From: Tremella fuciformis
Taxonomy: Eukaryota > Basidiomycota > Tremellomycetes > Tremellales > Tremellaceae
DNA: 64,000 nucleotides
Direction of reading: 5' to 3'
Assembly: GCA_032768795.1 (NCBI GenBank)
Contig: CP136490.1
Location: 7,378,001 to 7,442,000, forward strand
Positions 12,594 to 60,671 of this stretch are shown piece after piece. Below the pieces are notes generated by a model that worked only from the letters and a program-made list of their open reading frames with translations, searched no databases and had not been told where the DNA came from. Made by a program: the position numbers and the translations under genes. Position 1 is the stretch's first letter. Every line of letters begins with the position of its first letter.

Positions 12594-15500
12594 ATGCTGG
12601 CTAGGCATGTCAGAAGGAAGCTGACATGGCATCTGCGGCTCCTCGATCCATCTATTACAAGTTCACGATTTTATTCGGCAGCCGGGCCGACATCAAGAAG
12701 CAAACAAGTCAAAACAACCACTTTATTCGATCTTCTGCCGACAAGCCGACTTGACGATGAAGGCAGACCAGCAGACGCCCTGCCTCCCCGCGCGGACGAG
12801 GTCAGATCGCGAAGAAGGAGCCCGAGGCTATCCAGTAATTGTCGAGCACATCAGATCCCCGCCACAGCGCTGACTGAGGAGATAAAACCCCAGTCGCACT
12901 TGCACACAACCTTCCCGCTGACTCGACGAAAGATGACGACGATGCTGCTTGGAGAGGAGCGATACACAGCCGCGAAGTGCCGGATACTCCACTGGCGAAG
13001 GAGATCTACCTCAATTATAGGCGGTTCCCGGGTTGCATAGTCCTTACTCGAGTTGGCAAGTTCTATGAGGTAAGGGCCCCCCCGTAAATCATGCTCCTGT
13101 TAGAGCTAAGCTGTAGGCGTATTTTGCACCGGCTGTTCAGCTCTCTTCCCTCCTCTCCCTCAAGCTGGCTTATCGACGTTATACGGATGGAAATTGGCCG
13201 TTCTCGGGCTTTCCGGTGCCTCAGCTCGACAAGTATCTCAAGATACTCGTGCAAGACTTGCAGCAGACTGTTGTTCTGGTCGAGGAGTATGGTCATCGCG
13301 ACTCGATGGGCAACATGGTGGGATCTAACAATGAGCTCAAAGAGCGGAGAGTAGGTCGAGTCGTCACCCCCGGCACTCTCATCGACGAAGGATGGTCGAG
13401 TACCAGCGAGAGTCGGTATCTATTGTCGATCGCCCTTGACGAAAGCACGCTCGAGACAACCGATCCGCAGCAGGTCCCTCTGTTTCTTGCTTACACTGAT
13501 GTCTCGACTGGAGAAATCTTTTCGAAAGAATCGAGTTTGGATCAGCTGGAGAATGACCTTGCGCGCATCGCGCCTCGAGAGGTGGTCCTGAATCAAGCTC
13601 TCAAGCTCGCCGTCTCTGGCGGCGGCAAGTCTGAACCAAGTATGACCTTCCTCATCGATCCGCTGCGAGCTGCAAATATATACGTATCGTTTGCCGATCC
13701 CCTTGCGCGTGAAGGCCCAACTCCGGTCTCAAGCTTGGTGCAATCGCCGAATATAACGGGTATAGAAGCGATGGCTTTTGCGCAGCTTCGTTACCATCTT
13801 CAATACGCCCTTCGCGACGCTATGCCTACAATGATGCAGGCTAACAGGGAGAAAAGGAGCTCGACGATGCAGATAGACGCTGCGACATTACACGCCCTCG
13901 AGATCAGGCATTCTATCCTGCCTGGCGCTCCTCTGGACCACCTGTCTTCCAGTCCCGGGCGCATCGGATCTCCTCTATCCTCTCGAGGCACCCTGCTATC
14001 TGTCATCGACCGCACAAAGACACCCGCAGGTCACCGACTTCTAGTTAGGACGCTGACCGCCCCCTCGACCGACGTCCCCACGATCAATTCTCGATTGTCA
14101 TTGGTCCAAGCTTTTGTTGACCGAGAAGATCTCCGCCTCGAGCTTCAAGCAGCGATAAAAGGCGTTGCAGATATCATGAAGATCATTCAGCGTCTTCGGG
14201 GTCGGCGCGGGGATGGACGGGAAGTCTGGGATGTCGCGAAGTGGATACGTTCTGTTGAACGTCTTTTGCAGCGGGTCCAGGAGGATGCAATCTCGTCTCA
14301 GGATATTTCGCAGACCCAAAGGCTTGAGCAGCTGTCGCGCTCGCTCCATCCCCTGTCCGACCTGGCCGACATGATCGAGGCATCTGTCGATGAGGAGGCG
14401 GTTGTGCGAAACGCTACAGACTTGAGAGAAGACGGCGAAGGAGGGGGAGATGACATAGAGCTGAGTGAGGTGGTACTAGGAGCCCGGAAAGGGGGGGAAA
14501 CGAAGAAGGAAGCACAACAACGTCGCGCGTCAGAGCTGGACTCAATGAGATGGTGGATAAAATCAAGGTCGGCTGGCTCAAGTGATCAATCGCAAGGACT
14601 TGCGCTGATGGAGCAGCTTTTCTCCGTTGCTTGCGGAAAAGACGGCGAGGCTTGACCGACTACGAGAGGAGAGAAAAGTTCTGGAAGAGCGACTACGCAA
14701 GCGGGTTGGCAAGTCCACTGTGTTTCGTGCACTTGAGGATGCTGACAATCAGGTTCGGATAAACTTTTCCTGTCGAAAAGCTTCAAAAGCGGCTATCACG
14801 TTGTTGTCACCAGCAAAGATGTCTATGTCCAAGCCGACAGGTCCAGAGTCTTTGAGGCGCTATCTGAGTCGAAAGGCCAGAAAAACTACGCATACGGGGT
14901 ATGCTGCTCCTCTCTTATTTCCACTGTAGCTGACAAGTAGCCTTGGTCGGCGCTAGGTGCGCGGACGGAGGCAGCTGTCGAGGAATTGTGGCAAGCACAG
15001 CGCGTCGCTGCGGAGGATCTACAGCAGCTGGTCAGTAACAGCTGGATTACAAATTGTAGCCTTATCTTACCGTTTCAGGTTGTGGCCCGCGCCGAGGATA
15101 TCCAACAGAACGCCCAGTTGGTCAACGAGATGGACTTGACGCTTGGATTCGCGCAAGCTGCCGTCGACCTCGACTTTGTTCGGCCAGTATTGCTCAACGA
15201 GTCAACCATACTCTTTCCCCCGCAAGCGACACTGACAGGCAGTGCGTCGTTGAATATTGTCAATGGCCGCCATCCGGCGGTGGAATCTGGCTTGCTATCC
15301 TCGGCTCGCTCTTTCACTCCGAACTCCACAAAGATGTCCCCGGAGTCCCGATTGCACATCATCACCGGTCCCAATCAAGGCGGAAAATCCACGCTCTTGA
15401 GACAAACGGCTGTGATCGCCATTTTGGCTCAGTCGGGCAGCTTTGTGCCTGCAGACAAGGCTGAGATTGGGATTGTGGACAAGGTCTTCTCGAGGATTGG

Positions 15501-19945: not shown

Positions 19946-22334
19946 ATGCGGATGGAAGTTCAGGAAGTCTGTCTGGCCGGAAATGAGGCAGACTCGTCCC
20001 TGCGCCTGCCCCTCAGCTTTCCCAACGACATCTTGCCAAACCCACTGGACTGGAAGGTGCTTACGCTTGTCCGGGTCAAGTAGGTTCCGAACTTCTCGAG
20101 TCGTGAAGACTCACGATAGACCAACATGGATCCAGGGAGAAGTGTACTCGTCGCTATCTGGCCATCCCCGCCTTATTTCTTCTCTTCTATTGTTCAAGTC
20201 ACCCGACAAATGGGACGAGACCATTGCCGTGTACCCGGCTGGTTCCCTAGGGGTCAATGCCAACCTTGTCGTTGATGCTGGGAAGCGCGAGGTACAAGCG
20301 AACATCCGCAGTGCGACGCCTGGTGGCAAAGGCAAAGCTGTCATCGTGTGCGTCAGAGCGTCAGGGGCAACACAGGAGAGAGCTGTGGTCGCCAAAGCCG
20401 TGGAGGCGGCGCGAAAGCTACTTGGAGGTCGACCGCATCAGGGCGGCGGCAATGACTTTTGGGACGAGCTTGGGGTATGCACTTGGGAGAGCTTCCGCGA
20501 GGGTAAGTCAGGCGGTCTTTTGGCGTGTTCGCAAGCTGATGGGCAGGAGACGAAAGAACCAGGCCGTCCAAGGATATGCTGCTCGGATTGGTTCCCGACT
20601 TGCCCATCAAGTCCTTCCTGATTGACGACGGGTGGCAGGACACACGGACCATCCGACTTTCCCGGGGGGAAAAGAAAGTCCTATACTCTTTCGAAGGCTG
20701 GGACGGCATGGGAGCGCCCATGCACGACGTCGTCTCGTCGCTGAAGAAGAAAGGAGTAGAAGAAGTGGGAGTGTGGTTGACCCTCCAGGGGTATTGGTGT
20801 GGGATTCATCCCGACAGCCCACTCATCAAGAAGTACGATTGCCAAGCCCACCCGAGTGCCGCCCGGGGTCAGCCGAGAGGCGGAGTAAACGTGCCACTGG
20901 AGAAGGGAGATTGGGAGCAATGGCTGCCGAGCTTGGACAAGGCAGGGCAGTTCTGGGAAGACTGGTTTACCGAGATGAAGAGCTGGGGCGTCGGGTTTCT
21001 CAAAGTGACAGCAGCCCATTGACGGTCAATGGGAGAGTGCTGAATGAAGGTCGACAATCAAGCCCATTACGATGCCATAACCGGCCCTCAGGCTGCTGCG
21101 ATCCACCAGGCCATGTGGTCCGGAATGCTTGCAGCGTTTGAGAAAGTGTGGGACGGCGACATGTCACGCCTAATCATGTGCATGTCCCACAATGAGCGCA
21201 TGCTCAACGGTGCAGGTGGTCTAGACTTCGATCGCCCGCCTGGGAACCTCGTCTTCCGGTGAGCTCTTAGCTATACCCCATTGTTTGTGGTGATACTCAG
21301 CAATAGCAATTCGGACGACTTCAACATGTCGTTTGGCAACAAGCACACGCATTTTGTTCATTGGAATCTTCATATGTCGATCCTCACGTCCCACTTGTCC
21401 TTGGTACAAGATTACGATATGTTCTCGACAAATCCAGAAGAGCGATGGCCGCTGTACAACGCACTCCTGCGCTCTCTGTCGCCAGGTCCAATCCTCCTCT
21501 CCGATGCCCACGGTGTCCAATCTGATCGCGCTTTACTGGGCCGTATGACAGCAAAGGACAAAAGTGGGCGGGTCAAAGTTGTCAGGACTAGTACGGCTGC
21601 GACTGCTCTGGCGGGCAGGTGGTTCTGGGACAACTTGCAGGGTTCAGAGGACGGGCCAGCGTTAGTCGGGGGCGCGAGCTTGCTTCAGGCCAAGGGGGCG
21701 CTGCTTGGCGTGTGGAATGGCCGCGACGCGGACTCGGACGCTCGGGCAATCGACCACATCGGTGCCCAGGACGTTGCGGATGTGTTGAGCACGAGCGAAG
21801 GAGAGGAGGGAGAGTACGCATTGTACACTCTCGGTCTCTCAAAGGAGAACGGCCGAAAAGTCTCGCTTGTGGACTTGGCAAAAGACGAAGGGAAGGGCAT
21901 GACAATGGAGCTGGAGCTCAATAAAGGGGAATGCGAGTTAGTCATCGTTGCCAAGGTCTGGCATTTGCCAGGAAAAAAGGTTGCTTTGCTCGGCATGCTG
22001 GACAAGCTCGCCCCGCTTGCCGGTATTGAGGTTGTGGGTGTGCAGCATGGTGAGCAGATTCTGGGATAACGATACGTCGCACTGATGCATAGATGAGCTT
22101 GTCGTCAAGGTCACTTATGAGACCGAGCAGCTGTCCGTTCTCGTCTTTGCCGACGAGAGTATGACTACAGACAGTTTCAGCGTCTCAGTAGATGGCCAAT
22201 CGAGGACGCTGGACGAAGAGAAGCATACAACTTTACCCTTCGGTGCCAGGCTGTACTCTGTGGCTGTTGGTGGAAGCGGTTGCCTGTCTAAGGGCGATAT
22301 GGGCGCGTACGAAGTGCGCTGGAAGATCATGTAG
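19946..22334 (+). CDS. Raffinose synthase / Sip1-type glycoside hydrolase family 36 protein
   Basis: Proteins of this family are alpha-galactosidases or galactosyltransferases with a TIM barrel. The start MRMEVQEVCLAGNEADSS leads to SFPNDILPNPLDWKVLTLV. The barrel begins FWDELGVCTWESF, then LPIKSFLIDDGWQDT with the DDGWQ motif, VGVWLTLQGYWCGIHPDSP, and KVDNQAHYD, formed by removing a 46-base intron at about 21005-21049; its Asp is the expected nucleophile. Further on are RLIMCMSHNERML, RNSNSDDFN and DYDMFSTNPE. The C-terminal region (ALLGVWNGRD to VAVGGSGCLSKGDMGAYEVR) is the beta domain. Gene context gives no substrate; plants use related proteins on raffinose-family sugars, and fungal members are poorly known. 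Exon borders near 20150-20215 are uncertain. Confidence 0.85.
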
Positions 22335-22494
22335 ACGAGGACGATGGCAGACACTACCATGGCGAAATGGAAGATGCAAAAGAAGTCAGGCACGCTGCAA
22401 CCGAACTTGTCGCCAGTTCGTCCTCGCTGACCGTTCGTTTTGGCTTCGTTTTGGCTTCGTACATCTGCGCAGAACGCTTGTAACAACTCTGAGC

Positions 22495-22974
22495 ATGAGT
22501 GAGCATCCCTGCGGCACCAGCTCGTCCACTGCGACATCTGCCTCGGCTAGTCTCGAGACCAACAACACACCTACCACACCCACACCGACCTCGCGGGCCG
22601 CCGAGCCCACATCAGCGCAGAGCAGCGCCATCGCCTACCTCTCCACCCTGCTCGACCGGCCCCTGCGCCTCACAGCCATCGACGGGCGGACGTTCATAGG
22701 GCCCCTCATCTGCGTCGACAAATCCAGCAACGTCGTCCTCTCGCCCGCCGAAGAGTTCCCGGCGCCGGTCCCCCCGGCCGACACGGAGGCGTGGCCCGCG
22801 CGCAGGCGACACGACGCGCTCTGGCCGAAGAGCGAGGCGTTTGACGGCCCGGCACTCGGGTGGGGCGGGAGGCCGTTGTCGATGATCCTGCTGGAGGGCG
22901 ATAAGATTGTCAAGGTCGAGGTGATGGATGAGCCTGGCGCGCGGGGGCAGGGGGAGGCGGATCGGTATACCTGA
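22495..22974 (+). CDS. LSM-domain protein, probable NatC auxiliary subunit (Naa38/Mak31-like)
   Basis: A 159-residue single-exon protein. After a Thr/Ser/Pro-rich leader of about 45 residues comes an Sm fold: LSTLLDRPLRLTAIDGRTF, GPLICVDKSSNVVLSPAEEF (Sm1), a loop of about 45 residues, then GRPLSMILLEGDKIVKVEV (Sm2). This order, with the long insertion between strands and the LEGDKIVKVEV ending, fits LSMD1/Naa38, the small subunit of the NatC N-terminal acetyltransferase, better than canonical Lsm proteins. A different LSM-like role cannot be excluded. Start chosen at the ATG just upstream of the Ser/Thr leader; the frame is open further up but there overlaps the 3' region of the GH36 gene. 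Confidence 0.72.
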   Translation: MSEHPCGTSSSTATSASASLETNNTPTTPTPTSRAAEPTSAQSSAIAYLSTLLDRPLRLTAIDGRTFIGPLICVDKSSNVVLSPAEEFPAPVPPADTEAWPARRRHDALWPKSEAFDGPALGWGGRPLSMILLEGDKIVKVEVMDEPGARGQGEADRYT

Positions 22975-40474: not shown

Positions 40475-42350
40475 ATGGCCAATCATGACATCGGGAGCCA
40501 ACGTCGGGTGACCATGAGTCTGTCCTCCAGCTTAGTTGGGCGTGTAGCGTGTAGCGGTAGGGCACGCTCGGCCCTGCACACCCGTGGGTCTGTCCGCAGC
40601 TTGACCATGAGGCGAGCTCCAACTGCGACGTGGCCTGCCAGCTATCACATAATTGCGAGCACAGACGCAGCGGCAGCAGCACGCCAGCACATACCCGTCA
40701 GCAATATGACTCGACCACTCTCGCAAATAATCTCTGCCAATGGCGACGACAACCCTCAAGATGAGGTTGATGTCATCGTCATCGGTGCTGGTCTGGCCGG
40801 GCTCTGTGCGGCCGTGGCATTGCATCAAGCTGGCAAGAAAGTCCTCGTTCTCGAAGCTGCAAGCCGGGTAAGATTACTCGGGTTTTCTTGCCTGGCTTCG
40901 CTGAGCTTTGTCCAGGTTGGAGGTAAGACGCTCAGCGTTGACACTTCGTCCGGAGGCAGAGTAGACCTAGGTGCAGCATGGCTGAATGAGTGCATCCAAT
41001 CTTGCGGTATCGTGGACAGCAGCTGACCATAGATACACCCAGCCAGAGGTGTACAAGCTCTCGCTGGAATCGGGCAACACGGTCATCCGTCAAAACAGCA
41101 CAGGCGTGTCGGTGTGGGAGATGGGCGACCGCGTCTTTCGCTTCCCAGGTCAGAACCATACTGAGATGCTGTGGGGCAGTGCTGATAAAAAGAGGGGCAA
41201 GAACCGAATATGAGCGAAGAAGACGATGCAGACCGCGATCGGCTCTTTGAACTGCTGGACAGCTTGTCAACCAAGCTTGACCTGGATGCCAGCTTCGCAG
41301 AAGCGCCGATGGCTGCTGAGCACGACGCGATGACCGTCTCTGCCTGGCTAGACAAAGTCAGAGCCAGAGATTCTACGCGTCTGATCATGTCGCCTCTTAT
41401 CGCCGTCCTGCTCGGGGCAGACATGCGTGAAGTGTCGATGCTGTACTTGTTACATTACATTAAGACAGCCGGTCAGCATGCCGTATGTAGCGGCGCACCA
41501 GCCGTGTAGCTGACATATAGGCGGGTGGAACAGCCTGATCGCGTCCGACAAGACTGGCGGCCAGTTCCAGCGGACACGACAAGGCAATCAGACCATGTCC
41601 ACATGGATGGCCAAGTCTGTGCTGCCACCTGGAACGGTCCTCCTGGACACTCCGGTTTCAGCGATCCATCAAGACGGCTCTGGTGGTCAGGTCACAGTTG
41701 TCACTCGGACCATGCGGCGATTGACCGCCAAGAGGGTCATCTGCACCGTACCTTCGCCCCTTTTGAATGCCATCGAGTGGTCGCCGCAGCTGCCCGTAGA
41801 GCAGCGTCTCCTGGCGGCCCGGTCATACCTCGGCATAACGACCAAAGTCATCCTGCTATACGAACGTGCGTGGTGGCGAGAGGCAGGACTAGCGGGATCG
41901 TGCGTGTCGTCAGAGTTTCCCGTCTGTGTCGTGTTCGATACTTGCGATGGCGAGCTTGAGGGGCCAGACCACCGACTGGGAATCCGCCAACATAGCCTCA
42001 CCTGCTTCATCATGGGTGATCATGCGGCCAAGTATGCCGAATCGGCTCCTCAGAAGCGTCAGCGAGCGGTCAAAAACCAACTGGCTCGTCTTTTTGATGA
42101 CCACGGAGACGAGATAGACAACACGCTTGAGGTGATTGAACATCAATGGATTTTGGATGAGTGGAGTCAAGGCGCCCCAGTCCCGGTTACAGCTTGCGGT
42201 GCACTGTCGCTGTACGGTGGCTCGCATGGCGCCGCACATGGCCTCGTCCACTTTGCGGGCACGGAATATGCGACCAGGTGGAAAGGGTATATGGAGGGCG
42301 CGATCCTGTCCGGGCGGCACACGGCGGTGAAGGTGCTAGAGGCGATGTAG
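40475..42350 (+). CDS. Flavin-dependent amine oxidase (monoamine oxidase family)
   Basis: The FAD-binding Rossmann motif is DVIVIGAGLAGLCAAVALHQ, followed by KKVLVLEAASRVGGKT, GGRVDLGAAWLN and, after removing a 43-base intron at about 40993-41035, EYTQPEVYKLSLESG. Substrate-domain helices include LDSLSTKLDLDASFAEAPMA and MTVSAWLDKVRARDS. The long last exon has STWMAKSVLPPGTVLLDTPV, LTAKRVICTVPSPLLNAIEW and the C-terminal FAD loop HFAGTEYATRWKGYMEGAIL. The Cys that binds FAD covalently in mammalian MAO is not at the usual place. The reading frame is open from the ATG at 40475, only 87 bases after the acetyltransferase stop; the ATG at 40706 (MTRPLSQIISANGDD) may be the true start. The oxidised amine cannot be named. 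Confidence 0.85.
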
Positions 42351-43907: not shown

Positions 43908-45904
43908 CTACTGCACCTCCTCTCCGCCGTCAAGCTCATCGCCCATGTCCATTTCCTCAAAGTGCTCCAGCAGTTCGTCCATCTCGATCTCCGGGAAGTC
44001 GTCGTCTTCCTCGACCGACTCGGCGTCCCCATCTGTCCCCTTGAGATCTTCCTCCACCTCCATGGCCGCAACGGGAGCGGCGGGCTTGGCAGCCTTGCCC
44101 CTTCTCTTGCCTCCCTTGAGGCCCGAGCCAGCTTTCCCGCTGACGCCGGCGCCGGCGCCCATGGCGATATCGCCATCCTCTTCTTCCTTGGGCGCATTCT
44201 TCTCTTCTGCGCCCCGCTTGTAAAGATTGATCGCCGCACGCATCTCCTTGTCCTCCTCCAGATCCCGCAAGAACAGCTCGTAGTCTCTCTCGACATTCTT
44301 TTGGTCCACACCTCCGCGCCTGCCAAGTGCACCACGTCCAACGGTCGATTCCCCAACATCCTCGGCCTCTTTGGCGATTGACCGGAGCTTCCAGTTCCTC
44401 GGCTTATTCTTCTTCCGACGGTTCGGGTGCGTCTTCTTGACCAGAACCACGTCGGGCATGTTCTCCCCCGAGCGCTCGAGCGCCTCATACGCGTCATTGT
44501 TAAAGTTCGCGTTGGTCAGGTGGTAACCCAAGACCGTGTCTCCCGGTTGCAAAATACCGCCTAGATGGGTCCGAGTGTAGAAGATACCGTCGTGGCCCAT
44601 CTCCTCGTCTTCTCCTGCGGGTCGGGACGACGCAGTCCCAGCAGCCCGCATGACTTGCACATCTGCAAGGACGTACTTCCCGCGAGCGATATTTGAGTAC
44701 TCCACATCCAGCACGACGAACTCGACAAGGTCGGAAACGGTCGCGAGCGACTCGAAAGGCTGTCGCCAGTACACAGGTGCGGTCACGTCGGTCTGTTGAA
44801 GGGTGTTGGGGTCAAGGAGGTGGATGGTGTTGCCGACGCGGGAGCAGATTGTCAATGGTCTTTGCCCGTCAGTATCGAGGCAGGATGGAGCCCAGCGGAC
44901 GTACGTGATGTTTCCCCATGCCTTGGCTAAAGGACGGGGAATGCAGACAAGGTCGTCTTTGCATACCGGTACGATCTCAACGGAGTAGGTGAACTTGTAA
45001 TTGGAAGTATTGCTGTGCGTATCAGACGAGATGAGCTGTTCGGAGCCTTTCGATCTGCCAGTCAGCTTTGCCGGATTGAGTCCTGGATCACGACCCACCG
45101 TACAGGAACTACTCCTGCCAGAAACTCGACCATCTTGATCGCATCGTTCCTTTCTGAATAAAAGAAATCCAATCCGTCTCGTTTCTCTGAAATGTTGATC
45201 GTATCCCTGCAACATTAACTATAGTTCGAGGTCACCCCAGTCTGGCTCACTTGTGGGCATTGTGCTTCAAGATCAATTGCTCAAGCCACAAGAACGTCCG
45301 CTTGTGAGTGACTTTTTGCCGCACTTGCACTGTCGCCTTCCAAGTGTTTTTGGCCGCGAGTCGAGTACACGAAGGACACTGGCCGGTGTGCACAACTAGC
45401 AGCAAGATGAAGTCGTCTTGCAGGACTGTGTTCGCCAACACCTCCTTTTGAATCGTCACCTTCACTTTGATACGCCGAGAGTGAGGTTCTGTCCAGACAA
45501 ATGAAGCGTCGACAAGTCGTACTTTCATCAAGGGTCGTGAGATCTTCTTCAAGCAGATAGCTGTTTCATAAGCTCAACCCGATGACAGCAACATTGTCAG
45601 ACCTACCGAGCAGTTCTCGCGATTCAGGCTGGGCATGCACCCATGTTTGTGGCGGCGAGAGGAACCTTTCGCAGCCTCGACAGAAGTTGAGTGTGGCCTC
45701 TTTTGGGATCCCGTCCGTAATGTCCACCGAGTTCTTCAAGCAGCCAACACCTGAATCCCGTCAGCTGACCAACCACTTCCTACAAGGTGGCAAGAACGTA
45801 CACAGACCTGCCCCATTGGCAGACGATATGGGGGTGCCGCAATCGGCGCAGAGGATGTAGCTCTGCAATCCCGCCGCATCGGGCTCGTAATCCGTGGTCA
45901 CCAT
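43908..45904 (-). CDS. NMD3: 60S ribosomal export protein Nmd3
   Basis: Nmd3 is the adaptor that brings Crm1 to nascent 60S subunits for export from the nucleus. First exon MVTTDYEPDAAGLQSYILCA has CADCGTP; splicing supplies the next Cys pairs (CLNC, CRGCERFL and later CPSC), the N-terminal zinc sites. Then KVRLVDASFVWTEPHSRRIK, TIQKEVLANTVLQDDFILLL, FLWLEQLILKHNAHKDTINI and GLDFFYSERNDAIKMVEFL follow in family order. The second half has YKFTYSVEIVPVCKDDLVCI, ANFNNDAYEALERSGENMPD and VVLVKKTHPNRRKKNKPRNW. The C-terminus is acidic (DDFPEIEMDELLEHFEEMDM), fitting the leucine-rich export signal region. Four or five introns. Head to head with the fused lyase-kinase gene. Confidence 0.95.
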
Positions 45905-46200
45905 AGCTCAGTCTGCTGTCAATCGACAAGGTATAGTGATCACAAGGTCTGTCCTCTGGAAATTTACAGATGCTCGATTGCCGGTGGCAACTTTGTTACG
46001 TAAGGCCACGTGTTTCGTCGTTCGGAGTGCGCCGATCAGTCCGAGAATCCTTTGGAATGGCGTTATCGTTTTCGACTCTGCGTTTGGAAAAGCAGTCTCC
46101 GCTTTGTGTCTTTCTATACCACCCTCAAATCCTTCTCGAGTGGAGTGTGAGCTTGACTTGTACGTCTGAGGCGGCTGGAGAGCCAGTCATACACGGCATC
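45905..46200. promoter_or_regulatory. Divergent promoter, NMD3 / lyase-kinase fusion
   Basis: The 296 bases between divergent starts would serve both genes. A reading frame in phase with the plus-strand gene is open back to about 45970, but nothing there resembles protein; the ATG at 46201 is preferred. Confidence 0.45.
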
Positions 46201-49200
46201 ATGACTTTTCCGCCATCTCCTACCGATACCTCCCTCGCAACATCCATCTTCGACTCCACTCCTTCCAAATCTCATTCCGATGATTCGCACTTGGCACGCT
46301 CTGCCAACTGGCGTTTCTCGACTCTCTGCGCAAATGTGGATACGAAAGATCAATATGGCGCGAGCTCTACTCCAATCTACCAGACGGCCACATTTAAGGG
46401 GATGGACGGTCAATATGATTACACCCGCTCTGGTAACCCCACTCGAGGAGCCTTAGGTGAGATACACAGCACACCCTGAAGTGTCTGCTTCTGACTTGAT
46501 GTAGAATCACATCTTGCAAGGCTGTACGGGGCGGACGCATGCTTTGCCTTGTCGACCGGTATGACCTGCCTGGACGTTATCCTCCGGCTTGTACGACCCG
46601 GAGACACCGTCCTGGCCGGCGATGATCTGTATGGTGGGACTAACCGGTTGCTCACCTATCTGAAAGAGCACGTGGGAGTCGACGTCCGTCATGTGGACAC
46701 CACATCCGTCAAGGAATTGCTGCCCCATCTACATGAAGGTAACAAGTGAGCTGGTCTGCTCCTATCTGGGCAATCAACTGACATTCCTAGAGTTACTATG
46801 GTCCTGCTCGAGTCTCCCACCAACCCTTTGCTGAAGATTGCCGACATCCCATACATTTGCTCTACCGTGAAAACGGCGGCTCCAAATGCTCTCGTGGTCG
46901 TCGACAACACTATGATGTCGCCGTATCTCCAACGGCCGCTTGACCTCGGCGCCGACATCGTTTATGATTCCGGGACAAAGTACCTCTCGGGACACCACGA
47001 TGTCATGGCGGGTATCGTTGCTACAGGAGCACCGGAAATCAGCAAGCGCATCGCATTTTTGATCAACTCAGTCGGATCCGGGCTGGCGCCATTCGACTGT
47101 TTCTTGCTGCTGCGAGGCGTGAAAACGATGAGCCTGAGGATGGACAAACAGATGGAGAACGCTCATCTCGTGGCGTTGTATCTCAACGAGCTGGGCTTCT
47201 TGGTGCACTATCCGGGCCTCAAGAGACATCCTTTGAGGGATGTGCATTACAAGCAAGCGAAGGGGGCCGGTGCAGTCCTCAGCTTCGTGACAGGGGACAA
47301 AGCTTTGAGCGAGAAAATCGTCGGCGGCACCCGCCTGTGGGGCATAAGCGTATCTTTCGGAGCCGTCAATAGTCTGATCTCGATGCCTTGTCTGATGTCG
47401 TGAGTTTGTCGCTGTAGCGGAATCGATCAGGGCTCATATCGTCAGTCACGCATCGATTTCCGCTGCCGTGAGAGCCGAACGAGGCCTTCCGGAGAACCTG
47501 ATTAGGCTCTGTGTGGGCATCGAGGATCCACGAGACCTGCTCGACGACCTAGAGCATTCGTTGATATCTGCTGGAGCAATCACGCCCAATCTCTCTTACC
47601 CGGCGCACTCGGAAAAGAAATTAGCCGAGCTGTTCGACTCCGACCCTACAATCTGGGTGCTCGAACGCGCTCGGTCATTCAAACGACGCGGGGAGAGTCT
47701 CATAGAGAACCTCGTTGATGGCGTGAAACGCGGCCTCGGCTTGGGAGATGTGCGCCGAAAAAAGGTGGTCGAGGAGGTCGTCGTGTCGGCGCCTGGGAAA
47801 GTCATCTTGTTCGGCGAGCATGCGGTAGTACACGGAGTCGTCAGTGTGCCTCCGAGAGAGTGTATGCCTTGCTGATGGTCAGACGGCAATCGCCACGAGT
47901 GTTGACCTGCGATGCTACTCGGTGCTTAGTGCACGCTCTGACCACAAAGTTGCCCTTGAAGCGCCAAACCTGAACGCCGACCTCGAATGGGATATTTCAT
48001 CTCTTCCCTGGAACCTCTTGCCGGTCGCCACTCCCGGTGGACCGAAAAAGGTAGCAGACAAAGAGCTGGACTCTGCGCTCTTGCAAGCCATTGAATCCGT
48101 CGTGGGCGAGCAGGAAGTTGGGAAGAAAGGTCTCGCTGCCAGTGTCGCATTCCTCTACCTCTACATGGTCATGGCCGGCAGCAACTCGAACGCGTCAGTT
48201 GGCCATGCTTTTTGACTGCCCAAGCTGACCAGTAGTCCCGCCTTGACATTGACAGCATCTGCCAATCTGCCAATCAGCGCCGGTCTCGGCTCTTCAGCTG
48301 CGTTTTCAACTTGTGTTGCCACATCGTTATTGTCGGTCCACTCGCATCTCTCGGCCCAGAATGCGTTGTCGCCAGAGGACACAGGTTTGATCGACGGCTG
48401 GGCATTCCTGAGCGAGAAGGTACTGCACGGAAGCCCCAGTGGAATCGACAACGCTGTGTCCGTGCGCGGAGGAGCGGTTGCCTTTACTCGCGCGGTAGGC
48501 GGCCGGACCGGGGGTCTCGAGGGAATGCATGGGTGAGTGAAGACTGGCTTGGCAAAATTCTTGCTGATCGCTCAGCTTCTCTTCGATCCGTCTATTGTTG
48601 ACAAACACTCTCGTCCCGCGAGACACGAAATCACTCGTTGCCGGCGTCAGTGCAAAGCGCCTCGCCGAGCCACATATTGTGGATCCGATACTGTCTGCCA
48701 TCCAGTCTATATCAGACGAGGCGAAGGTGCTATTGGGAGGAACAAGCCATGTCGACCGCACTGCTCTTGTCGCGCGGCTAGAGGTGAGCCCCTGGCGCGG
48801 ATTTTCCGGGTACCATAGCTGATCATCAGGCTCTCATCAAGGAGAATCAGCAGCACCTGGTCAATCTGGGCGTCTCCCACCCCAGTCTCGAGATGATCGT
48901 CGCTGCTACCGCCGCGGACCCCTTCAACCTTCCTACCAAGCTCACCGGCGCCGGAGGCGGTGGCTGCGCACTGACCCTCATTCCCGATGGTCAGCTTTCA
49001 TCTTCTCGAATTGTAGTCAAGCTGACGTCCAGACTTTCCCGACGCGACGCTGGACGAGCTCATCCTCTCGCTCGAGAAGATGGGCTTCCAGCCGCACCTC
49101 ACGACCCTCGGAGGCCCCGGCGTGGGCATCTTGGTGCCCACTGGCCGGGTGAGTGAGAGCACAGACCAAGTGGCCGAAGGTGAAGAAGGCGAGGGGAGAG

Positions 49201-49286
49201 TCGTGCCGAAGCGCGCGGGCTTCCGGGAGTGCAGTATCGACGGTCTACACAGCTGGGCAGAGAGCCTGGGCCAGTGGACGTACTGA
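46201..49286 (+). CDS. Fusion of cystathionine beta-lyase and mevalonate kinase
   Basis: One gene encodes two complete enzymes. The N-terminal half is a PLP enzyme of the Cys/Met family: FSTLCANVDTKDQYGASSTP, IYQTATFKGMDGQYDYTRSG, ALSTGTM-like ALSTGMTCLDV, LESPTNPLLKIADI, VVDNTMMSPYLQRP, and the PLP-lysine motif SGTKYLSGHHDVMAGIV. It fits the Str3 cystathionine beta-lyase type, which forms homocysteine. The domain ends at LIRLCVGIEDPRDLLDDLEH and a linker of about 70 residues runs, with no stop or Met, into VVSAPGKVILFGEHAVVHG, the start of mevalonate kinase. The kinase keeps LPISAGLGSSAAFS, HGSPSGIDNAV and TGAGGGGCALTL. Exon 4 (47446-47839) spans the junction unbroken. Introns seen include 46457-46504, 46746-46790, 47400-47445 and 47840-47882. 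No separate kinase start exists upstream of its first motif. Confidence 0.93.
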
Positions 49287-49778: not shown

Positions 49779-51873
49779 TCATCGAGCCGCGCGGACAGTC
49801 CGGTCTCGTCCTCGGCCTTCACGAGTCCTGCTGCCTGCCGCAGACCGACCGCGAGAGTCGGTGGTGGCAGCCGGAGTGACGTCGGCGGTGATCGCTTTTC
49901 CGCGACGGCTCCTGCCGCGTCGACCCTCGTCGCCCTCGTCGCTCTCGTCCGCATCGTACGACCAGTGACGCGCATGCCGGATGTCTTTGGCAGGGCTGTC
50001 GTGGCGACTCGGCGCAGGCGAGGGTGACTCGGGCTTGAACGCCATTGGCGAGCGAGGAGGCGACTTGGAGCGACGCGAGCGAGATCGCTCGATCCACTGT
50101 CGCACTTCGCGCTCGCGCTGGCGTTGCTCGATCACCTCCTCGCCGCCGGGCGGGATGACAATGTCCATCGGCAGACTGCGCACCATCTGCTGAGCCGGGG
50201 TCTCTTCGGGACTTTGCGGTCGCGAGGTGGCAGGCATAGGCGCGGCTGTCGGTCGAAGCTTGGAAGGAGACGGCGCGGCGACAGTGGGGGCAAACTTGAC
50301 AGGCGAAGTGGCTGTCGTAGTAGCAGCAGGCTGCGAAGGCGCAAGAGCAAAAGGCGAGAACGAGCGCAGGTACGCTGAGAGATTGAACAGCGTTGAGATC
50401 GGTCGATAGACGGCCGAAGTACGAGCAACCGGTGGCTGAGGCGCCGCTGCCTTGTACGGCTTGGCAGATGCCGAGAAGCGACGCGCAAAGGCCGAAGAGG
50501 ATGCTGCCGACTGGTCGTCCGTGAAGATGTCCGCCTGCTCGACCGGGTCGGTCATGATGGACGGGTCGATTGCCTCTGAGAATGAGACGGTCGATAGAGT
50601 CGGCGTGCCGGCACTGAGCATGTAAGACGGCATGACAGGCGAGTCGTCGACATTCATAGGAGACGCGAGTACCTGGACCCTAGACACCTCGGCGGCAGCG
50701 GGAACAGACTGAAGACCAAGTGTCGAGGTCGCCGGTGGGGCAGCGGTAGAGGCGGTGACGGATGAAAGTACCTTGACGAGCGGACCGACGCCAAAGGCAC
50801 TGAGGTGACTGAGGCCAGCTAGCGCAGACTCGATCCTGCCCTTGGGCGTTGTGCCAGGACCAGTCGTGTCGGCCTCATCGGTCCCCTCTTGAGCGGGCTC
50901 GTAGATGGGCATCTCTTTCCTGGTCCTGGACCTGCCGCGAGGCCTGGCAGTAGGTCGTTCGTCTTCGCTGGTCGACGACTCGGCAGGACGAAGCTTGACA
51001 GCCTTAGCCCACGAGATGATGTCTTCGCGGCTCCTCGAAGAGGCAGACGAGGCCACCAATGCGGCGACGGGACTCTGCGAGCTCTTGCGAGCGGGAAGGT
51101 GCGATGGCGACAGGTGAGAGGTAAGAGTGAGCTGACTCGTGGGAACGGACGAGTGCTCGATATGATGGACTGGGAGAGGGAGTGACTTGTGGTTGTGCAT
51201 AGGCATGGCGGCAGGGAAGGAGGACTGCGGAGAGCCGATCTCAATGGCATGTTCGTTGTCGCTGCTCTCGGACGTCGAGCAAAAGACCGAGTCGAGGGCG
51301 GCAGGAGTATTGGCGCCCGTCGACTTGGCGAGTTTGGCGAAGCCTTCAGCCCTAGGCTGGCCTTCTCGGATCCCGGTGAGGATGGGGGTGGTGGTGCACG
51401 AGAGGGCGACACCGGTGCTCTTGCGAGCGAAACGGGGCATGACCATGCTTTGTCGGGTGTCTCTGCGTCGTTTGGAGATGGGAACGGGCTCCGCCATCTG
51501 AGCAGGAAACGAGTAGGCTCGACGGTCGCGAGTCGCCGGTTTGGACAGCGTCAGACCCGACTCGGGTGCGTGGAGCGGGGTGACTGGTGGTCGAACGGCA
51601 GGTTTGACCGGGGACACGGAACGGTCCTTCGTGAGGGTGAGTGGAATGATGGGCGGGAGAGTCGATGACAGAGCCATCGGCGCAGCAGCGAGAGCAGAGG
51701 TAGAAGTGGACGCTTGATCGCGGCTTTGATCCTCAGCGCGACACGCCTCGGAGCAGTAGACATCTCGAGCGGAACGCTGAACATCAGAGCAAACTCCTTG
51801 GCTGCCGAGGAAAACTTACCGTGCGCTTCGAGCAGGTCAAGCACCAGGCAACATCCATATCCATGCCGCTCAT
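49779..51873 (-). CDS. Ser/Pro-rich protein with an N-terminal Cys zinc motif, function unknown
   Basis: The first exon MSGMDMDVAWCLTCSKRT and the second, beginning RSARDVYCSEACRAEDQSRD, together give CxxC and CxxxC, likely one zinc site of a kind seen at the N-terminus of fungal regulatory proteins. The remaining 650 or so residues are low complexity: many Ser/Thr/Pro, short SxxS and SPxR sites, KRRRDTRQS near residue 110, EQRQREREVRQWIERSRSRR about 100 residues before the end, and an Arg/Gly/Asp-rich tail ending RGRDRTVRAAR. One intron (about 51754-51819), fixed by the frame of the Cys motif. It is probably nuclear and disordered, but I do not recognise the family or assign a role. Confidence 0.7.
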
Positions 51874-55544: not shown

Positions 55545-58243
55545 CTACGCAGCAGCCATCAGCTGGCCGTGCAACGGGTCCACGACCGTCCGCAGCGTGT
55601 CGAGCAGGACCTCGGCGCCGCGCTGGATGCCCCAGAAGCTCACTTGACGGATACGTTTCGAGTTGGCCGCCTCGGACGAGACGTGATAGGCGAGCGCATC
55701 GTAGATCTGGTCAGAGATAGAGGTGGTGAGGCCGGCTCATATATCAGTTCCACGTCAAAGCCAAGTCAACCTTCTAGACTCACTCTCAAACAGAGTCCAC
55801 GAGCCGTCAAAGTCAGACTGCTAGTCAGCAGGTATCCTTGAAAACAGGACGCCACTCACAAGGTCAGCGGCCACCTGACAGTGAATTGGCACTAATGTTC
55901 GATTCGCGCTGCTGATGAGCCGTGTACTTCCCAGCCGACATGTTACCAACTTGATGAACGCCACGATTGGGCGGATGATTGCGTTATTCCTGACGCTGAG
56001 ATCACTGGTGAAAACAGGTACAGCAGCCTTCAAGTCTCTGAACCTGAGATCGATGTCCACGACCACCTTGCGACCAGCCAACTGCTCGCTCGCGCCTATT
56101 TCTCGATCCGGACTATTCGGTGCTCGCAGAGGCGGTCGGGCCAGTCGCGCCTGACCGGGGTTGAGCTGATCACCCGCCAATTCGGCAGCAATGGCGTTGT
56201 GGTCTCGGTGAGCATGGTGCGGAGCATCGTCCGGATGGGATCCTTGAGCAATGGTAACAACATTCCGCGAAATCTCCTCAAAGATCGCCTTGATATCGAC
56301 TTGCTCGTCCGGGTGGAAGGGGAATTTGATGTCGAGTACCGCGTCAACCCTGCCAGATGTGATCCAGGACATGGGCGCAGTGTGACCAGTAGCGTATTGA
56401 GCATGTTCTATCGGCAACCCGTCTATGCGGAATCGAGCCTGATCGTGAGCTCGTGGCCATTGCAAAATCCTGACGCCTGACCATACGCTTCACGGCGCTG
56501 TCATCCCTCTTGCTCTCGCCATTCGCCTTGCCCAACTTCTGCGGCATGTGCAGACTGAAAAGACAGTTGTCCATCTGTCCTGTAATGCCCTCGGCATTGA
56601 GCAGGTCATAGAACAGCCATCGTTTTCTCAATGGCCCGATGGCCGCATTGAAGATCGACAAGTTGTATGGCTTTTGACCGGCAGGTTGGTAGACGGTGAC
56701 CAAAGCATCCTCCACATGGAATGATTCCAGCTCGAAATCACCTGTTCTTGTAGGGTGGCGGAAATCGGCTGGCACAAGAGGTTTGGACATGTCCCACCAG
56801 ACCGAGCGGCGATCTGGGGTCAGTATGAACCATGCCATGTGATAATGACGTACCAATCACACCTCGAACACCTTTCACTTTGGCGTCTTTGACCAATCCC
56901 TTGCCATCCAACCATCGCATGAAGCTGAGTGTCACCTCCACCTCCTCCAGGTTCACGTCGAACATGGTGTAATTCTCCGCGTCTGAAGCAGGCGGCACGG
57001 CGAGATACGTGTCGGGCGAGATATTTGACGACATGAAAGGGACCGGTGATGGCGGTTTGGCAGTGGCCGACTTCTGGGGCGTGCCCGACGAGTCCGAAGG
57101 TCTGCGTGATACAAAGACGTTGCGGAATGTGATCGTGGATGCTCCCCATTTGGGGACGATGGCCGATTCGAAGCTTCCCATAAGCCATGATGTCCACTCC
57201 AGATCGACTCACATGACGGTCACTCCTGTTTCCGAGGTCATGTAGTCCGAGATCCATCGGGCGACATACTCTTGCAGGGAGAGGGAGTTGAGCGTCGCAA
57301 ATACGGCAGAGACGAACGTTGTCCTTGACATAAGCTGGATCGATCCAGGGGAAGGCAAACTGCAGCTCACGTTCCGATCAAGATCCAAAGGGCTTCTCGT
57401 CAGCTCGGTGCGAGTGTTGTCAATGGGGGACTGACTGTTTCCTACCACGAACCAGCTGGCGAATGCGCTCAGATCATCCGTGTTGAACCGTCGCCATCCT
57501 CGAATCGTAAACCACTTAAGTCGGATACGAAGTCGCTCCCACCAGCCACTAGCTGCTGCGAGCAATTCCTCCTTCGAAGGGCGATGTAAAGCGTTCGGTG
57601 CCTGTAGGCTCGTGCGGCGAATCAAACGCTGGATGAATGGCACATAGTCTTGGGCATGACCGCGAGGATCGAGAGGAGTCTTCGGCTTGTCTTCGGTCTT
57701 GACCTTGTCCTCTGAGGATAATGGAGGCAAAGATGATACCGGAGTCGCAGGGGTGTCGGGCTTTGAGGGCTGAGGTGGTGGTTCAACTAATCCTTCCGAC
57801 GATGGAGCCGGTGTCTTCGATGAGGAAGAGGCTGATCTGTGCCGATTTGCCCATGATTCCGCTGAGATACCTGGCGGCGGGCCGTATGGTGCAATACGAT
57901 CGGAGCTCTCGATAGCAGCGTCAAGCTTGCTTCGACCCAGGGAGGAACGCTGTGGCGAATTGGCGGAAGTCGGCGGTGGTGTGAAGCGGGGATAAGGCGA
58001 ACGAGGGTTTGGAGGCGATTTTGATGAAGCCCATCGCCTCTGTGCAGCGGACGCGACAGACCGTTCAGCGCCTAGATACCACAAGATAGGGGCTCGAGGG
58101 GTGTATAAGATAGATGCAGGGCGAGTACTTGGCGTCACTCCATATACCACTCGCCAGGAATGCATGGAGCCAGCTGCCGAGCTAGATGAGGCGAAACTCG
58201 AGGTCGTGGCGATCCTAGCTATGCGCGTGGAAGTCGCCTGCAT
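55545..58243 (-). CDS. MDM31: Mitochondrial inner membrane protein Mdm31/Mdm32 family
   Basis: Mdm31 and Mdm32 sit in the mitochondrial inner membrane and are needed for normal organelle shape, inheritance of mtDNA nucleoids and lipid homeostasis. The N-terminus MQATSTRIARIATTSSFASS with RRWASSKSP is a presequence; a Pro/Ser linker follows. The family core starts at IRGWRRFNTDDLSAFASWFV, joined by splicing to LWILIGTTTFVSAVFATLNS (TM1). Later blocks are FESAIVPKWGASTITFRNVF, NYTMFDVNLEEVEVTLSFMR, VKDAKVKGVRGVIDRRSVWW, HVEDALVTVYQPAGQKPYNL, SIFNAAIGPLRKRWLFYDLL, APMSWITSGRVDAVLDIKFP and GRKVVVDIDLRFRDLKAAVP. The end is GIQRGAEVLLDTLRTVVDPL and HGQLMAAA. Several introns. Its start faces the prolyl hydroxylase gene. 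Confidence 0.9.
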
Positions 58244-58472
58244 CTTGCTCGCGTATGGTCACCTGCCTCCAGTGTATGGAGCTCTTCAAGTCGTCATGTT
58301 CGTGCTCTGTACGAGGATGATGTGAGGAACAATGGTGGAGATCAAGATCTGCTGGCGGCCAAAACTGACGTATCGGCTGGTTCTTCGTATAACCGTGCCT
58401 GGAAGAGGTGGAGGCAAAGAATTTCTCTCCGTTCTCGGCTGTCATTTTCATCTCTTGACAGCTTGAACCGTC
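58244..58472. promoter_or_regulatory. Divergent promoter, MDM31 / prolyl hydroxylase
   Basis: Two divergent starts lie 229 bases apart, so both promoters must fit here. No factor sites can be named. Confidence 0.45.
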
Positions 58473-60671
58473 ATGACAGCAACAGTACGCGCCCGTTCGC
58501 CCAGCCCGGCAGAAGCGTCGAGCAGCAAGAGGGCACGAGTCGAGTCGACCGAGAGCAAGGGGATCCAAATCCCATCGCCCGAGCAATTGCAGCAGTATCG
58601 ACAAGCATATGTCGACGCTACTCCGTATCGCCATGCCGTCATCCCGGGTCTGTTGAGCGATGAGCTTGTGAGTCTCCCCAAAAAAAGTTCCCAGATGCTG
58701 TGAGCTGATAGTCAGCTCGAGGGTGTCGTGGAGGAGAGCCGAACGTATGGCATCAGAGGTGAAGAGGGCAGCCTGCAAGGATGGGGATGGGAGCAGAAAG
58801 AAACGGACATTTACAAGGTCGGTTGATGCGACAGCACCAAGGCTCGGTTGATTGACCGAGGCAGATACAGCAGACGCCAGATCTCTCTTCGCTGGATCCC
58901 GAGCATCTCCCAGAAGAGACTCTACGAGCCCTGCCGTACATCACCAAGCTGCGCAACGCCCTGTATGCCAAAGAGTTCCGGGAGCTGGTGCAGAAAGTGA
59001 CAGGCTGCGGCCCGTTGTCGGGGAAGAAGACAGATGGGTCGGTGGGGCTGTATACACAAGGGTGAGATACCTGAAGCCATCGTGAGAAGAGTGCTGAGCG
59101 GACAGGTCTCATTTGCTTTTGCACGATGACTCCATCTCATCACGCCTCATATCGTTCATTCTCTATTTGCCGAATTCACCTACGGACGCACCGGCACCTC
59201 CAGCATGTCTTGAGCCCTCTGCGAACGGCAAGTTTTCGAAGGGCTGGGTCCCAGAATGGGGAGGTGCTTTGGAGCTCTTCCCGGTCGAAAATGGGAAAGA
59301 GACCGGACTGCCGGGGGTCAAAGCTTCGTGGCGCGTGGACGTCAAGTGGGGCCAAATCGTCTTTTTCGAAGTCCAGCCGGGGCGAAGCTATCATTCGGTC
59401 GAAGAGGTCATCGTTGGCGATGGCAGGCAGCGTCTAGGCGTATCAGGATGGTAAGCGATTTGTCAAGCTTGTTGGCTCAAGACCTAAATACAGGTTCCAT
59501 CGCCCAGTCGAGGGCGAAGAAGGCTACGAGCCTGAAGATGTGACCTTGAAACAAAAGAATCTCAGCTCACTCACTCAAATCGTCAGTTCAACTCAAATGC
59601 ATTACTGACGACTGCTAACTCCTCAAGACCTCGACACCCACGATCCCCCTCACACCGTACACGTCTGACCCTCCTACCGGCCTCACCTCGGCGCACCTTT
59701 CCGCCTTGTCGCCATTTCTCGCACCGTCGTACCTATCGGCGTCGACTCTAGAACGCCTTTCGCAGCAGTTTGCGGCGGCATCCGAGATCGTCTTGCACAA
59801 CTTCCTGCATCCCGAGTTGGCGAGCAAGGTCAAAGCCGAGACCGAAAAGGTCGACAAAGATGACTACGCCTCAGTCAATGGGCTGCCACCACAAGATTTG
59901 GGCGAGACCGACGGCTGGACCCTACAAGGACCAAGTTCCAAACATCGATATGCGGCTTTGACTGGCGAGTCCTCGCGCACACCGACGGTACAGCGAGTCG
60001 TGAAGGAGCTTATACCCTCCGAAGCGTTCCGAGCCTGGCTGTCGGTGGTCTCGTCTCTCGCGCCAACAGGCTACCGCGCTGAGGCCCGTCGATTCAGACG
60101 TGGCCTGGACTACACCCTTGCAGCCGGCGAGGAGAAGGCGGGAGACGCGCGTCTCGACGTTTGCCTAGGCATGACGTGGTGGGCCGATGTCCCTGCTGGG
60201 AGCGACGAGGAGGATACTCTGGTCGACCATGGGGGATGGGACTGCTATCTCGCCGCTCCGGATGAGGATGAGGATCCGGCTGTGTTCCAAAGCGCTCTGG
60301 CGAAGAAGGCCAACGGGAATCATCAGGAGACTGAAGACGAAAACGCCGAGAACGGACATCCCGGTCACGACAATGACGTTGGAGAGGCAGCTACGAAGGG
60401 CGGTCCTGTCGAGCTGGAGATTGACCCAGATCAACTATCGCCCTCGGATTTCGATTCTGACTCTGACGACGACGACGATGGACCGCTCCTCACCCAGGCG
60501 GTATCGTTCAACAAGCTCATGCTTGTCCTGCGTGACCCGGGTGTCATGAAATTCACCAAATACCTCAGTGCGGCCGCGCCCGGGTCACGCTGGGACGTTG
60601 GTGGCGAATGGGAAGTGGGAGTGCTGGAAGAGGACGAGGGTGGCGAGGAGAACGACAACGAGGAAGCCTGA
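58473..60671 (+). CDS. Ofd1/Tpa1-type prolyl 3,4-dihydroxylase
   Basis: Fe(II)/2-oxoglutarate enzymes of this family hydroxylate a proline of ribosomal protein uS12 and affect translation termination; in fission yeast Ofd1 also controls the SREBP homologue Sre1 in response to oxygen. Order seen: MTATVRARSPSPAEASSSKR with a basic nuclear-type stretch; YVDATPYRHAVIPGLLSDEL; SLDPEHLPEETLRALPYITK; the iron ligands in SHLLLHDDSISSRLISFILY (His and Asp) and QPGRSYHSVEEV (His), with the 2OG Arg in RQRLGVSGWFHRP. The C-terminal second domain (HLSALSPFLAPSYLSASTLE; SEIVLHNFLHPELASKVKAE) matches the catalytically silent half. An acidic insertion (SPSDFDSDSDDDDD) lies near the end. Seven introns or so. 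Confidence 0.9.

Follow-up and report, generated by a model that had tools for sequence, protein, structure and literature searches.

A basidiomycete fusion of cystathionine beta-lyase (CBL) and mevalonate kinase (MVK) is already known and has been in print since 2012. The available text of PMC3342255 describes it under the name 'metC-MVK' in 12 basidiomycetes except Laccaria bicolor, where it is the sole K00869 homologue. In the available sections of PMC3468542, a C-terminal mevalonate kinase is reported for the STR3 orthologues of every basidiomycete examined apart from Postia placenta; STR3 is present as a single copy, and a stand-alone kinase was not found in basidiomycetes. The excerpted PMC4129116 adds Lignosus to the metC-MVK reports, and that of PMC3720577 describes a mycelial unigene of Pleurocybella with both domains; therefore, one transcript spans the junction in Pleurocybella. 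The original prediction for the DNA studied here had suggested that the pair might be undescribed, which PMC3342255 and PMC3468542 contradict. A functional study of the fusion was not recognised in the literature by title or abstract, a survey with most subscription journals outside its scope. The portions available of PMC8058980 and PMC10269642 do not mention the fusion, and that of PMC4393869 lists ERG12 of Xanthophyllomyces without naming one.

We found CBL and MVK joined in one polypeptide in a window of 64,000 nucleotides from Tremella fuciformis, the window being the whole stretch of DNA analysed. The fused gene occupies positions 46201-49286 of the forward strand, to which all features of the gene given below belong, and was modelled from its spliced translation and full-length relatives as nine exons encoding 910 aa, with the stop codon at 49284-49286. 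Exons 1-5 lie at 46201-46456, 46505-46745, 46791-47399, 47446-47839 and 47883-48193, and exons 6-9 at 48233-48532, 48576-48783, 48830-48989 and 49033-49286. They are separated by eight GT-AG introns of 39-48 nt each, and the spliced gene forms a single open frame of 910 aa. The junction between lyase and kinase lies without a stop within exon 4 (47446-47839), which comprises the end of the lyase, the entire linker and the first kinase motif, and intron 4 (47840-47882) follows directly after HAVVHGV. In the spliced translation, an in-frame Met is absent between residues 369 and 594 of the fusion. The in-frame fusion that had been predicted is thereby borne out, with one frame, both domains complete and a junction inside exon 4 free of stop and Met, and its predicted span (46201-49286) and joining exon (47446-47839) agree with the nine-exon model. 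The start of the kinase motif had been placed in the right region, at 47783, but this is the preceding Val codon, and SAPGK itself starts one codon later, at 47786. The expectation of one transcript and an equal dose of both enzymes fits the single frame and the complete halves, as far as the sequence can tell.

To find the same fusion in other fungal proteins, as had been proposed, we scored 7992 candidates against the whole fusion and obtained 834 matches at E <= 0.001, the best 120 of which provide the figures for relatives of the fusion. The architecture was kept in all of them: the fusion aligned over 95-100% of its length in 120/120 of the best 120 of 834, at 51-74% identity and with protein lengths of 878-962 aa. 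Named relatives among these 120 include the Tremellomycetes Kwoniella, Tremella, Cryptococcus, Naematelia, Kockovaella, Cutaneotrichosporon, Naganishia and Phaffia, as well as Dacrymycetes, many Agaricomycetes and Microbotryomycetes (Pucciniomycotina), where we assume the class placement of most organism names. The top 18 matches carry Tremellales names and share 70-74% identity with the window protein, which falls among the Tremellomycetes in trees of both halves, in keeping with a basidiomycete host. This distribution is drawn from the best 120 of 834 matches, which do not settle Ustilaginomycotina, Pucciniomycetes and Wallemiomycetes.

The idea that an assembly or gene-model artefact united two neighbouring genes has practically no probability left and was rejected, as the same architecture recurs in 120/120 relatives (best 120 of 834) from many separate genomes; according to the available text of PMC3720577, the Pleurocybella unigene also covers both domains. 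Loss of a stop codon through an assembly error, which had been named beforehand as a possible refutation, is likewise excluded by the 120/120 full-length best relatives. Among the 109 source-named fusions in the best 120 of 834, the names of just two, P0034 and P0054, indicate a kinase, so that with naming in 2/109 the kinase is easily overlooked in fusion records. We also noted P0171 (Phaffia rhodozyma, 315 aa), which is named mevalonate kinase, lacks SAPGK, opens with letters that lie within the kinase part of the Phaffia fusion P0034 and looks like a fragment of that fusion.

The lyase half spans 46327-47578 (residues 43-413, over introns 1-3) and includes the PLP lysine K229. Pfam Cys_Met_Meta_PP (PF01053) covers residues 43-408 of the fusion, and the lyase half alone scores 529.9 bits over residues 40-412 with the NCBIfam model of eukaryotic cystathionine beta-lyase, TIGR01329 (cut-off 487.5). 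By sequence, its best solved relative is Arabidopsis CBL (1ibj, E 2.4e-115). The kinase half spans 47786-49145 (residues 483-864, over introns 4-8) with the motifs SAPGK, GLGSSAA, SPSGIDN and GAGGGG. Here, Pfam GHMP_kinases_N covers residues 606-684, the kinase half alone reaches 202.3 bits with the NCBIfam mevalonate kinase model TIGR00549 (cut-off 163.05), and by sequence it most resembles the solved mevalonate kinases of rat (1kvk) and human (2r3v).

We checked eleven active-site residues, whose positions were placed via alignments with the Arabidopsis 1ibj and rat/human MVK structures and whose roles and numbering we take to be those expected from plant CBL and rat MVK. K229, Y74, R76, Y128, D204 and R389 of the lyase and K487, E493, S625, E665 and D676 of the kinase are identical in 121/121 sequences (the window and the best 120 of 834 relatives). 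Both halves therefore look active throughout this aligned set of 121, the lyase predicted to convert cystathionine to homocysteine and the kinase to phosphorylate mevalonate. Following the kinase is a C-terminal tail (49146-49283, residues 865-910), which ends in a motif with two Trp. The mean top-residue frequency over residues 901-910 is 0.70, and at least 90% of 49 fusions retain two Trp and one Gly near the C-terminal end.

The two halves are connected by a linker of 69 aa (47579-47785, residues 414-482, between A413 and S483), which contains neither a stop nor a Met; resemblance to mevalonate kinase structures starts already inside it, at about residue 478. Over the 121 sequences (window and best 120 of 834 relatives) linker length ranges from 36 to 107 aa, with a long form of at least 65 aa in 26/121, the named ones being Tremellomycetes. 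Its positions are mostly variable, which led us to reject a joint motif, apart from the columns of R449 (Arg 0.96) and L458 (Leu 0.88), which stand out. The AlphaFold model of the Kwoniella newhampshirensis relative P0001, based on 49 sequences, had a mean pLDDT of 77.9 and a pTM of 0.52; both domains were visible, and their relative placement was not fixed at this pTM. In its linker, two confident helices at residues 421-450 (block means 86-94) were followed by a low-confidence stretch at 456-475, and in its lyase half residues 37-82 and 352-377 fell below pLDDT 50. Foldseek with this model ranked 1ibj first, 2r3v third and 1kvk ninth.

The plainest reading of the linker is that of a tether between independent domains. 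Most likely, the gene encodes a bifunctional enzyme in which a Str3/MetC-type CBL is tethered at its C-terminus by a variable linker to an Erg12-type MVK, providing both activities at 1:1. The two halves, both presumably active, would work as independent domains on a string, and no metabolite would be handed from one to the other because their substrates are unrelated. The fusion would fix both enzymes at 1:1 and subject the amount of lyase to the same control as the kinase.

We also considered whether the gene gives rise to two products, lyase alone and kinase alone, by intron retention, an internal start or proteolysis, which we regard as very improbable. In 11 of 147 database proteins with the first kinase motif, HAVVHGV is followed by V, as expected if the intron were read through, and seven of the 11 stop 2-15 residues past this motif (P0241 from Vanrija humicola, P0242, P0246, P0247, P0249, P0251 and P0256), as separate lyase products would. 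Most simply, these seven lyase records of basidiomycete type, which end at the place of intron 4 in the window, may be taken as gene models reading into the intron. Retention of any of the eight introns in the window yields a stop; therefore, intron 4 is not special, and its retention as a switch was rejected for want of a signal that the other seven do not have. P0121 and P0243 form a split pair, suggestive of a single gene that the gene caller divided at introns, and thereby argue against two products. A Met is present in 32/121 linkers, as an internal start would require, but absent from 89/121, the window among them; an AUG-started kinase is therefore not conserved, and an internal AUG was rejected on this ground.

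A change of compartment has even less in its favour. In such a scenario, the fusion would hide a peroxisomal signal at the C-terminus of the lyase and keep the enzyme cytosolic, in line with yeast Str3p, which is peroxisomal with a terminal SKL according to the available text of PMC9929924. However, PTS1-like C-terminal tripeptides were found in 0/120 fusions (best 120 of 834), in 0/120 matches of the lyase half (best 120 of 7990, mostly other fungi) and in 0/69 kinase matches (P0172-P0240). With such ends absent from all three sets, relocation was rejected as a general account and appears extremely unlikely; the lyase-half list has no close S. cerevisiae relative, and the signal may be a feature of that lineage alone.

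The fusion is the sole mevalonate kinase gene found in the genome: the kinase half, searched against the 28.1-Mb assembly at E <= 0.1, found its own locus alone, and a search with the GHMP family returned two further loci that are homoserine kinase and diphosphomevalonate decarboxylase by best match. It is also the sole locus with the eukaryotic CBL model as its best match, three other loci having been scored piecewise. The best models of the other PF01053 loci were O-acetylhomoserine sulfhydrylase, cystathionine gamma-lyase/gamma-synthase, BesB (weak) and 5-aminolevulinate synthase, and none of those scored in the genome reached the TIGR01329 cut-off; since three of them were scored in pieces, with exons L015 and L016 left out and low bits as a result, the best-matching family is a fairer guide than the cut-off.

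For the history of the fusion we built trees of each half from 25 fusions, chosen to represent four classes, and 14 stand-alone outgroups. In both, the fusions were monophyletic, with support of 0.775 for CBL and 0.998 for MVK, and Ascomycota stand-alone enzymes adjoined the fusion clade in each. Within the fusion clades, the branching order disagrees with the accepted classes; in the tree of the kinase half, Naganishia stands apart from the other Tremellomycetes and Dacrymycetes fall among Agaricomycetes. The trees fit one fusion event before the split of the four classes seen, in the basidiomycete stem. In the kinase-half list (best 120 of 4653), the stand-alone kinases that carry a name belong to Mucoromycota and allied lineages, Ascomycota, a chytrid and animals. 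Where named basidiomycete entries of the lyase-half list (best 120 of 7990) lack a complete kinase, most continue into the linker or kinase before their stop, and P0317 (Hericium) stops earlier, at a point equivalent to where exon 3 of the window gene ends; such lyase records look like truncated gene models. We propose that the fusion most probably originated a single time, in the basidiomycete stem, and would have been retained because the separate lyase and kinase genes were gone.

Alternatively, the fusion could be kept for functional coupling, tying the supply of sulfur amino acids and SAM to sterol synthesis through shared transcription or cross-talk between domains. SAM methylates sterols at C24, and the wide conservation of the fusion (best 120 of 834) would suit such a role. 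In Ganoderma lingzhi, the available text of PMC9810662 reports a 'mevalonate kinase', g3941, as a direct SREBP target that rises upon SREBP overexpression, which also speaks for coupling. From what PMC3342255 implies for Ganoderma in its available text, we infer that g3941 is the fusion gene; if so, sterol control would also set the lyase dose in Ganoderma lingzhi. On the sulfur side, the available part of PMC3716945 describes the stand-alone lyase gene of Neurospora, met-2, as induced by sulfur limitation through CYS3, a further point for coupling, so two controls would have to be reconciled in a fused gene.

Near the start of the fusion gene, two one-mismatch CYS3-type sites lie just before or at the start codon (46057-46066 and 46193-46202), where coupling would place them, but the window as a whole contains 28 such sites against 22.2 expected, a count reached by 11/100 shuffles, and no exact site. 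Being at chance level, they were rejected as a regulatory sign. One CACGTG lies 194 nt upstream of the fusion ATG and would also favour coupling; as a single site known from this window alone, it was not taken as a regulatory sign. The upstream DNA thus gives no clear sign for or against sulfur-sterol control. Across the whole window CACGTG looks depleted, with seven sites against 19.95 expected and at least seven in all 100 shuffles.

CBL is not the sole fungal route to homocysteine, and the presence of an O-acetylhomoserine sulfhydrylase type locus in the genome counts against coupling, as does the linker, variable in length and sequence; its range of 36-107 aa speaks against a precise joint function. 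Regulatory coupling of sulfur and sterol metabolism through the fusion is thus possible, although we consider it unlikely. Less likely still is a control device kept across Basidiomycota, in which the lyase assembly would scaffold the kinase, one signal (SREBP in some lineages) would set the capacity for both homocysteine and mevalonate-phosphate, and the two-helix linker segment of Tremellomycetes would dock on the lyase and might pass its state to the kinase.

We surveyed the genomic neighbours by a Pfam scan of 19 of the 25 long frames in the window. An Ofd1 C-terminal domain (PF10637, 203.4 bits) was found at 59619-60671 (+), at a distance of some 10 kb from the fusion gene; the sterol regulator Sre1 is a target of Ofd1 in fission yeast. 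A long frame on the reverse strand facing the end of the fusion gene (49779-51815) gave a weak match to the Ecl1 family, at 22.3 bits below the cut-off of 28.3. In fission yeast, proteins of this family have been linked with sulfur starvation. On the other side, an NMD3-type gene (PF21192, 108.2 bits; 43908-45218, reverse strand) diverges from the fusion gene, so that both may use a common upstream region. Further Pfam assignments were a MutS-type protein (13117-14655, +), an LSM domain (22192-22974, +), an amine oxidase (41514-42350, +) and MDM31/32 (57209-58258, reverse strand).

Should the kinase prove essential, a lyase deletion in a basidiomycete would take mevalonate kinase with it, and this joint loss bears on the interpretation of methionine-auxotroph experiments and on the engineering of terpenes in basidiomycete yeasts. 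What has kept two unrelated pathways on one polypeptide over such a span is a testable question.

Compared with enzymes outside the Basidiomycota, the first half of the fusion shares family and active-site residues with Arabidopsis CBL (1ibj) and Ascomycota Str3, and the second half with rat and human MVK (1kvk, 2r3v) and fungal Erg12. Unlike the two halves here, all of these are stand-alone enzymes, and most of the kinases aligned begin just before SAPGK. The STR3-MVK of PMC3468542 agrees with the present gene, as far as the available text goes, in architecture, single copy and the failure to find a separate kinase; the experiments there were on the ascomycete Magnaporthe, the basidiomycete fusion being noted from sequence. 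That text places fungal stand-alone kinases in Ascomycota only, whereas our kinase-half list adds Mucoromycota and chytrids. Closest is metC-MVK as portrayed in the available text of PMC3342255 (Ganoderma), PMC4129116 (Lignosus) and PMC3720577 (Pleurocybella), with an N-terminal CBL and a C-terminal MVK as here. The published set averages about 886 aa, against 910 aa here, and metC-MVK is the sole K00869 homologue in its genomes, just as the fusion is the sole MVK found here. The present gene differs from the published metC-MVK in coming from another species and in its linker of the long form (at least 65 aa, 26/121), whose named bearers are Tremellomycetes.
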